Source: an uncultured Oscillospiraceae bacterium (lineage in GTDB: Bacteria; Bacillota; Clostridia; Oscillospirales; Oscillospiraceae). From it: 64,000 bases of DNA. This document shows positions 36,496 through 49,354 of this stretch, one piece after another; position 1 is the stretch's first letter, and each line of letters opens with the position of its first letter. Where the stretch lies: positions 1-64,000 of the forward strand of contig CANRIF010000002.1 of assembly GCA_947630645.1 (NCBI GenBank), written 5' to 3'. The translations under genes and the position numbers were made by a program. The notes under the pieces are model-generated. The model searched no databases, had not been told where the DNA came from, and was given only the letters and a program-made list of their open reading frames with translations.

Positions 36496-36551
36496 ACAAT
36501 CCCTCAGTCTCCGGCTATTGCCGGAGCCAGCTCCCTTTGCACAAGGGAGCC
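36496..36551 (+). repeat. palindromic element, right half
   Basis: ACAATCCCTCAGTCTCCGGCTATTGCCGGAGCCAGCTCCCTTTGCACAAGGGAGCC; same layout as 48453-48505. Confidence 0.75.
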
Positions 36552-36611: not shown

Positions 36612-36662
36612 GCCTCCCCTGTGCAAGGGGAGGTGCCGAGCGAAGCGAGGCGGAGAGGTTGT
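36612..36662 (+). repeat. palindromic element, left half
   Basis: GCCTCCCCTGTGCAAGGGGAGGTGCCGAGCGAAGCGAGGCGGAGAGGTTGT; near-identical to 48376 and 46867-46918 (rc). Confidence 0.85.
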
Positions 36663-46473: not shown

Positions 46474-46918
46474 GGCCCCCTTGTGTAAAGGGGGCTGTCA
46501 GCGAAGCTGACTGAGGGATTGTTTTACCGCCCGATCTATGTATTCGCAAACGCCGTCAAAGTTCTGGCTTATCTCATTGTTGGGTATCCTTATGACCGTC
46601 AGGCCATATCCTGCCAAAAAGTTCGTTCTATCAGCGTCTTTCGCCTTGGCATCCGGCTCAAAATGCTGTGAGCCATCCAATTCAATGACCAGCTTTGCCT
46701 GGGCGCAGTAAAAGTCAACGATATATCTTCCTAAGACTTTTTGCCTTGAAAAAGGAATGGGATACTCCCGAAGGAGATCATACCAGAGGCGTCGCTCCTC
46801 TTTCGTCATATTCTGGCGCAACTCTCTGGCTCTTGATGTGAGCGTTTTGTTATGCTTTCGCTCCATAACAACCCCTCCGCCTCGCTCCGCTCGGCACCTC
46901 CCCTTGCACAGGGGAGGC
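46474..46918 (-). mobile_element. candidate gene-bearing palindromic element (left half, DUF559 gene, right half)
   Basis: minus strand: GCCTCCCCTGTGCAAGGGGAGG...GGCGGAGGGGTTGTT | DUF559 ORF | ACAATCCCTCAGTCAGCTTCGCTGACAGCCCCCTTTACACAAGGGGGCC. Confidence 0.6.
46498..46866 (-). CDS. DUF559/Vsr-like endonuclease-domain protein
   Basis: MERKHNKTLTSRARELRQNMTKEERRLWYDLLREYPIPFSRQKVLGRYIVDFYCAQAKLVIELDGSQHF; RBS and stop codon lie in the flanking repeat halves. Confidence 0.88.
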   Translation of the reverse strand: MERKHNKTLTSRARELRQNMTKEERRLWYDLLREYPIPFSRQKVLGRYIVDFYCAQAKLVIELDGSQHFEPDAKAKDADRTNFLAGYGLTVIRIPNNEISQNFDGVCEYIDRAVKQSLSQLR

Positions 46919-47015
46919 TTTGGTCTGGCTATGACCTCCACAAAGCCCGTTTTGTCGCGCTCATTATACTATGCCCGAAGCCGCTTTACAAGCGCCTTTT
47001 CTCCGAAACGGAAAG

Positions 47016-47125
47016 GCCTCCCCTGTGCAAGGGGAGGTGGCGCGGCTTAAGCCGTGACGGAGAGGTTGTTACAATCCCCCAGTCAGCGCCAGAGGCGCTG
47101 ACAGCCCCCTTTACACAAGGGGGCC
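47016..47125 (+). repeat. short palindromic element without gene (110 bp)
   Basis: GCCTCCCCTGTGCAAGGGGAGGTGGCGCGGCTTAAGCCGTGACGGAGAGGTTGTTACAATCCCCCAGTCAGCGCCAGAGGCGCTGACAGCCCCCTTTACACAAGGGGGCC. Confidence 0.85.
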
Positions 47126-47198: not shown

Positions 47199-48131
47199 TT
47201 ACAGACTGTTCGGGTCGAACGTCTTCGCTGCCGGGTCTGCAAAGCCGAACAATTCGTTGACCTCCACCTCCACAGGCGAATCGCTCTTCAATACGAACGC
47301 CCGCTGCACATCAAGGGTCACGCCGGGCCTGATATCCGCCATATATGGGTTGGGGTCGTATCCGTCGACATCATACAGGATAGCAGACTCCAGCTGGACG
47401 CCATCCTGGAAGGCCTTCTCTATAAGCGACACCATCGCGCTGGTGGTGTTTTCGCTGTTATTTGTCCAGGCGTATGTAACCACTATGGCGGGCTTCCCCT
47501 CATAATCCGTCGTCTTGAACGCGCTTTTGATCTCAACGGCATATGCACCCACGTTTACGGCGCCGCTGGCCTGGACCGGCGCAGCCGCCGCGCTGCCGGA
47601 GCCTGCCGGCTGCGACACACTGATGTTCGCGCCTGCTGGTGTATCGTCCTTTTTGCTGTTCCCGCCCACGATGCCGCCGACGATGCCGACGACCAGGACC
47701 ACGCACACAGTCCAAAACCACCATTTTTTGAATATGGGCTTTCGCGGCGCACCGCCCGGATAGGCCCGATATGGCGGGGCGCTGTTCTCATAGCGGTTCT
47801 GCCGTCCGGGGCGGGATGCGGACGGCTTTTCCGGGATGGGCGCCAGCGCGAAGTCATCCCCATTGTCGGCCACGGTGGCGTCAAATTGTCTCTTGAACTG
47901 GACAGCCTCCTCCAGCTGGTCCTCCTCAAAGAAGACCCGGTAACGCCGCCCATCCGCCGTCTCGATCCGGATAAACCCATCCGCGTCCGGCTGGGGCCTT
48001 CTCACCCTGACGGCAGTGATATCGTCCAGGAAGATCACTACCGCCTCCTGATCCTGCTTCTGGATCTTCATTTTCTGCTCGGAAAACGCGATCCCGCCGT
48101 CAAAGGAAATAAATCTTGCTATCGACGCCAT
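47199..48131 (-). CDS. DUF5067-like membrane protein
   Basis: MASIARFISFDGGIAFSEQKMK...; single TM WWFWTVCVVLVVGIVGGIVGG; C-terminal ITYAWTNNSENTTSAMVSLIEKAFQDGVQLE-type domain. Confidence 0.7.
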   Translation of the reverse strand: MASIARFISFDGGIAFSEQKMKIQKQDQEAVVIFLDDITAVRVRRPQPDADGFIRIETADGRRYRVFFEEDQLEEAVQFKRQFDATVADNGDDFALAPIPEKPSASRPGRQNRYENSAPPYRAYPGGAPRKPIFKKWWFWTVCVVLVVGIVGGIVGGNSKKDDTPAGANISVSQPAGSGSAAAAPVQASGAVNVGAYAVEIKSAFKTTDYEGKPAIVVTYAWTNNSENTTSAMVSLIEKAFQDGVQLESAILYDVDGYDPNPYMADIRPGVTLDVQRAFVLKSDSPVEVEVNELFGFADPAAKTFDPNSL

Positions 48132-48168: not shown

Positions 48169-48200
48169 AAAATAAAAAGTGCGCGGCGGTCGCCGCGCAC
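48169..48200 (-). terminator. intrinsic terminator between the structured RNA and the DUF5067-like ORF
   Basis: minus strand GTGCGCGGC-GACC-GCCGCGCAC-TTTTTATTTT. Confidence 0.85.
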
Positions 48201-48331
48201 GAAAAACGCGGACCCCGCTTGCGCCACACAAGTCGTCTCACAGCATCCGCACATGAAACAAGAGTCCGCATTTTTACCAAAAGATAAAAACGCGCACGGA
48301 TGCTTAGAGTATTGACTTGTGTGGCGCTTTT
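48169..48331 (-). ncRNA. candidate structured RNA: standalone sRNA or riboswitch-like leader of the DUF5067-like gene
   Basis: promoter TTGTAA-17-TATACT; three nested helices P1 (14 bp), P2 (7 bp), P3 (10 bp with G.U); intrinsic terminator at the 3' end. Confidence 0.6.
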
Positions 48332-48360
48332 AGTATACCACATGCTAAACTGCATTACAA
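48332..48360 (-). promoter_or_regulatory. sigmaA promoter for the structured RNA
   Basis: minus strand TTGTAA - 17 nt - TATACT with TGG extended -10. Confidence 0.65.
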
Positions 48361-48375: not shown

Positions 48376-48505
48376 GCCTCCCCTGTGCAAGGGGAGGTGC
48401 CGAGCGGATGCGAGGCGGAGGGGTTGTTGCGGTGCGGTTGGACTGACGTTACAATCCCCCAGTCAGTGCCAGCGGCGCTGACGGCCCCCTTTACACAAGG
48501 GGGCC
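48376..48505 (+). repeat. short palindromic element without gene (130 bp)
   Basis: left half GCCTCCCCTGTGCAAGGGGAGG...GGTTGTT, 22-nt spacer, right half ACAATCCCCCAGTCAGTGCC...CCCCCTTTACACAAGGGGGCC. Confidence 0.85.
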
Positions 48506-48562: not shown

Positions 48563-49354
48563 TCACGCCATGCGGTCTTTCCGACGCAGGGTCAGAGAAT
48601 CCGCGATCATGGCGATAAATTCCGAATTGGTGGGCTTGCCCTTGATATTGGACACGGTATAGCCGAAAAACTTTTGCAGGGTCTCCAGGTCGCCCCGGTC
48701 CCAGGCCACCTCGATGGCGTGGCGGATGGCCCGCTCCACCCGGCTGGGCGTGGTGGCGAACTTCTTCGCCACGGCGGGATACAGCACCTTTGTGACGGCG
48801 TTGATGGCGTCCATATCGTTGACGGTGAGGATGATGGCCTCCCGCAGATACTGATAGCCCTTGATGTGGGCCGGCACGCCGATCTCGTGGATGATGTCGG
48901 TGACCACGGCCTCCAGGCTGGGCTCCTTCGGCACCGGCGCGATGGCCACGCCCTGGGACACCGGCCCTCCGGCCCGGCGGCGTTCGGCCGCCACCTGGCG
49001 GATGCGGGTGAGCAGATTGGCCACGTCACAGGGCTTGGGTATGAAGTAATAGGCGCCCAGCTCCGAACAGCTGGCCACCACCTTGTCGTTGAAAAAGCCG
49101 GACAGGACGATGGCCGCCGGCCCGTCCTCCAGCTTGGACACCTCACCCAGCAGACCCAGGCCGTCCAGCCGCGCCAGGACCAGGTCGGTCACCAGCACGT
49201 CGGGCCGCAGCTTTTCCGCCAGCGCCAGCGCCTCTTGTCCGTCGCCCGCGCTGCCGACAGCCTGAAGGTCTTCTTCGCCGTCGATGACCTCCGTGAGCAT
49301 CCTACGGAAGTCCTCGCCGGAGTCAGCAATAAGAACGCGTGTCATAGTTTCCAT
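48563..49354 (-). CDS. spo0A: sporulation master regulator Spo0A
   Basis: receiver domain plus C-terminal [24 protein letters not shown]-type, [34 protein letters not shown]. Confidence 0.95.

Follow-up and report, generated by a model that had tools for sequence, protein, structure and literature searches.

Structure of the candidate leader

The question raised by this locus is whether the structured RNA encoded upstream of a DUF5067 gene in an uncultured Oscillospiraceae bacterium is a regulatory leader and, if so, which of its strands decide the fate of transcription. The window, that is, the whole 64,000-nucleotide stretch of DNA analyzed, carries the element on the minus strand, and positions of RNA features are given below in the 5' to 3' direction of that strand. 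The whole element, from stem P1 to the U-tract of the terminator, spans 48325-48174 (123 bits, E 2.9e-27 with the family model R1 described below). The promoter TTGTAA-17-TATACT, proposed in the first-pass annotation, was found in its place at 48360-48332 and is the sole promoter-like site in the region, with 0.2 expected; it would place the start of transcription on the first G of GCCACACAA, position 48325.

The window leader folds at -87.5 kcal/mol, compared with -53.3 kcal/mol for shuffled sequences (z = -8.6, 200 shuffles), and all three stems read from the letters by the annotation are present in its minimum free energy (MFE) fold. These are the 14-bp P1 (48327-48314 with 48234-48221), whose 5' strand carries the family core GCSACACAA; the 7-bp P2 (48303-48297 with 48249-48243; z -28.6 in the swap test explained below); and P3, which was given as 10 bp and has 11-12 bp. 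P1, P2, and P3 are in effect a single long hairpin. The 5' strand of P3 is called here strand a (48294-48283), and its 3' strand together with the tail, GGTAAAAATGCGGACTC, strand b (48278-48262). Strand c, GGGGTCCGCGTTTTT (48216-48202), follows P1 and precedes the terminator, which has the stem 48200-48179 and then a U-tract, as annotated. Its 5' arm, t5, occupies 48200-48192, and its 3' arm with the U-tract, t3, 48187-48174. The ATG at 48131, 38 nt past 48169, opens a 310-aa gene (47199-48131, minus strand) with a C-terminal DUF5067 domain (PF16729, E 1.2e-27).

The same-strand gene directly upstream of the cassette is spo0A (48563-49354, minus strand; Response_reg and Spo0A_C, E 5e-46). The 64-kb window has five occurrences of a REP-like palindrome, CTCCCCTNNNNNAGGGGAG (48378-48396, 47018-47036, 46898-46916, 36614-36632, and 36531-36549), where 0.45 are expected, and similar sequences sit before some cassettes in related genomes. 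The predicted N-terminus of a DUF559 endonuclease-like protein (46498-46941, minus strand; E 1e-32) runs through this repeat.

Distribution of the family

Of 60 related genomes compared by a blastn-type search, 22 contained matches, several in each, and an alignment of 21 copies defined the common anatomy. The 5' part consists of P1 beginning with GCSACACAA.., an AUA-type internal loop, a variable P2, and a P3 ending in GGUAAAAAYGC. The 3' part contains the P1 3' strand, AGCAAACGGAG-NNN-GCGUUUUUC, GUGCGC..GCGCACUUUUU, a ribosome site, and the start codon. The model R1 was built from the P1, P3, and terminator pairs only, the b:c and c:t5 pairings being absent from it. It detects six copies in this genome, the window element among them, and copies in 33 of the 60 relatives, in 102 of 297 genomes of the order (62 of 149 genera), and in 76 of 292 genomes of the class (49 of 180 genera), the latter being roughly one in four of the Clostridia genomes tested. 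No copy was found in the phylum outside the class in a sample of 300, which includes about ten class members. With full scoring, the number of copies in 12 copy-rich genomes is 10 to 29 each.

Named records with close copies are metagenome-assembled genomes (MAGs) of rumen, rabbit, deer, and other gut Oscillospiraceae, Ruminococcaceae, and Clostridia. The Flexilinea sp. RGIG2505 MAG (G902), labelled Chloroflexota, has seven copies (L095, L099, L114, L144, and L156 among them), and zero copies were found in 100 of its relatives; these copies may result from horizontal transfer or from mis-binned Clostridia contigs. The element was not found on plasmids. Two unverified and unannotated human faecal 'Bacteriophage sp.' scaffolds, MT835845.1 and MT837627.1 (L236 and L237), contain one cassette each, followed by genes for a lipoprotein-like protein and a zinc-ribbon membrane protein; they are probably mis-assigned bacterial DNA rather than phage.

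In the Rfam 15 scan of the window, 20 family loci, and 15 further loci, which the first-pass annotation had named as a possible refutation of novelty, only tRNAs pass the gathering threshold. The proposed riboswitch-like structured RNA before a DUF5067 gene is strongly conserved and has no Rfam match; the homolog search found the same anatomy, with compensatory changes, in dozens of diverged copies, well beyond chance. RNA candidates from comparative genomics, some of them with intrinsic terminators, have been described for human microbiomes (PMC8040213) and for 26/50 genomes (PMC8632094, PMC11109978). The main texts of these three papers mention neither the motif nor Oscillospira- or Ruminococcus-type hosts, and our literature search did not find the motif described. 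As judged from the sequence comparisons, this is a real and widespread class of predicted attenuators that is absent from Rfam.

Cassette layout and tandem arrays

The promoter keeps a nearly constant position in the family: in 83 of 100 copies, exactly 6 nt separate the end of the -10 box from the element, and the spacer is 17 in 80 of 100. A sigma-70 promoter score of at least 9 out of 12 is reached by 68% of copies versus 3.8% of shuffles. Where an ORF was found, the distance from the element to the start codon has a median of 23 nt, the start typically lying 15-40 nt past the terminator, and 114 non-redundant proteins start within 60 nt of an element on the same strand. The elements without an ORF by a simple rule (52 of 181) include cut contig ends and upstream members of tandem arrays. 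Such arrays, in which two to four full cassettes, often of differing sub-types, precede one gene (L222, L224, L198, L199, L203, and L216-L221), have gaps of about 46-160 nt between units, mostly containing the promoter only.

The presence of an own promoter and a strong terminator, as well as the upstream units of tandem arrays that lack a gene of their own, could suggest that the unit mainly yields a 155-nt small RNA acting elsewhere, with incidental read-through, and the annotation had indeed considered a free-standing sRNA. We find this improbable, because the gene begins about 20 nt after the terminator and depends on read-through. Moreover, the genes lie 15-60 nt past the terminator, too close for another promoter, their class is non-random, and the covariation of c with t5 (see below) is sensible only under read-through control.

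Covariation of four strands

Alternative pairings were evaluated by a swap test, in which the duplex energy of the strands of each copy is compared with that of strands exchanged among copies. In the first set, comprising 75 copies under 80% identity, four pairings were never matched in 20,000 permutations (0/20000 for each): a:b, that is, P3 (z -14.3), b:c (z -9.7, or z -8.6 without the A5/U5 runs), c:t5 (z -6.8), and t5:t3 (z -12.5). The controls a:c, b:t5, and a:t5 gave no signal in these 75 copies. All four pairings hold, at z about -5 to -7, in the 17 copies under 65% identity. The second set consists mostly of other families of the class that were unused in forming the hypothesis, with about ten rows overlapping the first set; here z is -12.5 for a:b, -10.0 for b:c, -7.6 for c:t5, and -18.5 for t5:t3, and the controls a:c (z -2.7) and b:t5 (z -3.1) are weakly positive, partly due to rows with mis-assigned strands. 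The pairing b:t3 was also considered and set aside, since its weak z of -3.2 is explained as transitive from b:c, c:t5, and t5:t3.

The aligned columns point in the same direction. Within the b:c core, 98.4% of cells are paired, with exchanges of C-G/U-A and G-C/A-U pairs, compared with 83.4% for P3, although the model R1, by which the copies were collected, had neither b:c nor c:t5. In the window, b and c (48278-48262 and 48216-48202) form 14 contiguous pairs. The terminator t5:t3 is paired in 98.7% of cells and P1 in 98.0%, with double changes in 10 of 12 pairs of the latter. The UUUG of P1 also covaries with the CAAA that immediately follows P1 (0/20000, no signal in the control), so that a second, alternative P1 hairpin may form; in the window, it would pair CUUG (48232-48229) with CAAG (48221-48218). 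In alignment A2 the invariance of the bases GCGUUUUUCGUGCGC is inflated, since 68 loci were fetched by a pattern fixing them; the selection of the second set was free of this pattern.

These observations support, at the level of covariation, a cascade of a:b (P3), b:c, c:t5 (antiterminator), and t5:t3 (terminator). The antiterminator and terminator helices are mutually exclusive and both are kept by covariation, and the upstream strand b is able to sequester the antiterminator strand c, as expected of an attenuator. The first-pass annotation had the anatomy right and left the switching strands 48278-48262, 48216-48202, and 48200-48192 unconnected. The switch that it proposed instead, between GUGCGCG at the P2/P3 junction (48297-48291) and CGCGCAC of the terminator 3' arm, finds no support in the family: these switch bases are not conserved among copies, and the own strands pair no better than swapped ones (-6.43 versus -6.44 kcal/mol, z 0.1, 75 copies). 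According to the covariation, the actual antiterminator is the post-P1 strand c paired to the terminator 5' arm.

Predicted folds and proposed mechanism

In nascent RNAs ending before t3, the c:t5 pairing is part of the MFE fold of 94 of 94 copies, involving a median of 11 bases of c, and it is accompanied by the long 5' hairpin in the examples shown. When b:c is forced, the terminator is present in all 94 copies, and the alternative P1 hairpin arises unprompted in the examples shown. Since c:t5 appears in all nascent folds and forced b:c restores the terminator, the default state would be ON, turning to OFF if the 5' hairpin is prevented. The nested OFF fold lies about 26 kcal/mol above the ON fold in nascent RNA (ViennaRNA), and thus a strong kinetic or binding effect would be required. 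We believe that the element is probably a self-contained default-ON transcription attenuator cassette that is turned OFF when its 5' hairpin is blocked. Covariation does not discriminate between ON and OFF as the default. It does show all four pairings of the cascade as well as P1 and its alternative hairpin, and to that extent the predicted mechanism is well supported.

The order of events, the default state, and the choice by a signal are what we infer from these pairings. Transcription would begin with the first P1 nucleotide, P3 would form from strands a and b, and the closing of P2 and P1 would then complete a single long hairpin. As long as a occupies b, strand c would be free to capture the emerging t5 as the antiterminator, resulting in read-through into the gene (ON). 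If the long hairpin is blocked, the P1 3' strand would fold locally onto the CAAA that follows, b:c would form, and t5 would be freed for the terminator, so that transcription would stop (OFF). A b:c pseudoknot with both P1 and P2 closed was rejected on geometry, since by our estimate about 70 A would have to be spanned by 7 nt; a pseudoknot retaining P2 alone is possible.

Similar terminator/antiterminator logic operates in classical amino-acid attenuators, but ribosome-mediated control by a leader peptide is hardly credible here, the least probable of the explanations considered: by inspection, a ribosome site and start codon before strand b are absent from the aligned leaders, and transcription would start directly within P1.

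As the signal we would first suspect a trans-acting factor, either a protein or, less likely, an RNA, which would bind the 5' strand while it is being transcribed or else the alternative hairpin. In P1 (ACACA/UGUGU) and in the loop of the alternative hairpin (UGUSGCAR), the sequence is conserved beyond the needs of pairing, which favours recognition by a factor. The pattern TTGTGTSGCA, antisense to P1, occurs in this genome at two elements (once on the opposite strand of one) and once more within a coding-like stretch of contig C116; hence there is no candidate trans RNA antisense to P1 in this genome.

A small molecule as the signal is a close alternative to the trans-acting factor. In that case, the AUA loop at the P1/P2 junction and nearby conserved bases would bind a metabolite or a signalling nucleotide and thereby select the fold. 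The overall architecture fits such a riboswitch, an unpaired AUA-type motif follows P1 in 87 of 101 copies versus 21 of 101 in a control stretch, and the large surface-protein regulon resembles that of second-messenger riboswitches. However, the hairpin is very stable already, P2 is free to vary in length and sequence, conserved unpaired bases are few apart from the AUA motif, and it is P1 that is conserved best, an unusual pattern for a riboswitch aptamer. We consider the small-molecule riboswitch a serious possibility but lean against it, and retain the trans-acting factor as the preferred reading.

Genes downstream of the cassettes

Matches to BspA-type LRR_5 repeats were found in 21 of 106 downstream proteins; others match InlB-type repeats, S-layer, Cu-amine-oxidase-N, and SHOCT domains, zinc ribbons, AMP-binding enzymes, and MazE/AbrB-type regulators. 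An N-terminal signal or membrane segment is present in 59 of 85 downstream proteins versus 88 of 452 other genes of the same loci (Fisher p 5e-19), as called by a simple hydrophobicity rule in a sample where copy-rich, LRR-rich genomes are over-represented. In this genome the predicted targets are the DUF5067 gene, a gene for an 88-aa relative of the N-terminal part of its product, and genes for a SHOCT membrane protein, a lipoprotein-like protein, and two cysteine-rich proteins. The predicted regulated genes mainly encode surface and secreted proteins. A small protein of 51-61 aa (MPDYEKLYHLMVNAAEDA..) recurs after the cassette (L092, L108, L128, and L152), and the one member scanned has no Pfam match.

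The many copies, tandem arrays, and long inverted repeats are also what a repeat or mobile palindromic element could produce if it had no regulatory role and landed upstream of genes by chance. Such an origin is very improbable given the compensatory changes in mutually exclusive pairings, the fixed register of the promoter and ribosome site, and the enrichment in secreted proteins.

Tentatively, and stopping somewhat short of calling it probable, we propose a new global class of RNA switches that would operate in a large share of gut Clostridia with up to about 30 copies per genome and tune the surface and secreted proteome to one signal, possibly via capture of the nascent 5' strand and not through a conventional aptamer, in promoter-switch-terminator cassettes that act singly or in series. 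The family would rank among the more abundant regulatory RNAs of Clostridia in gut and rumen. Since the standard RNA library lacks it, current annotation would be overlooking hundreds of regulated genes, many of them for surface proteins. Tandem promoter-switch-terminator arrays would be an unusual route to multi-input control. The four-strand map makes the question of the signal directly testable by single reporter constructs and compensatory mutants.

Comparison with known systems

Riboswitches that act by terminating transcription and have a separate antiterminator occur, for example, in the fluoride and c-di-GMP classes. Like them, the cassette is a 5' leader with an intrinsic terminator beside the start codon and an upstream fold that is in competition with an antiterminator. 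Unlike them, it matches no Rfam class, the terminator sequence itself is conserved, the sequence of P1 is strongly conserved, and the promoter is joined to the switch and the terminator in a fixed arrangement. In protein-controlled antitermination leaders (LicT/SacY RAT, PyrR, TRAP, and HutP), each of which serves one or a few pathways, the fate of an upstream strand likewise sets the choice between antiterminator and terminator, whereas the present family has a 155-nt conserved fold and up to 29 copies per genome. Finally, tandem riboswitches place several switch units in series before one gene (PMC9481103); in the arrays described here, in contrast, each unit has its own promoter and terminator.
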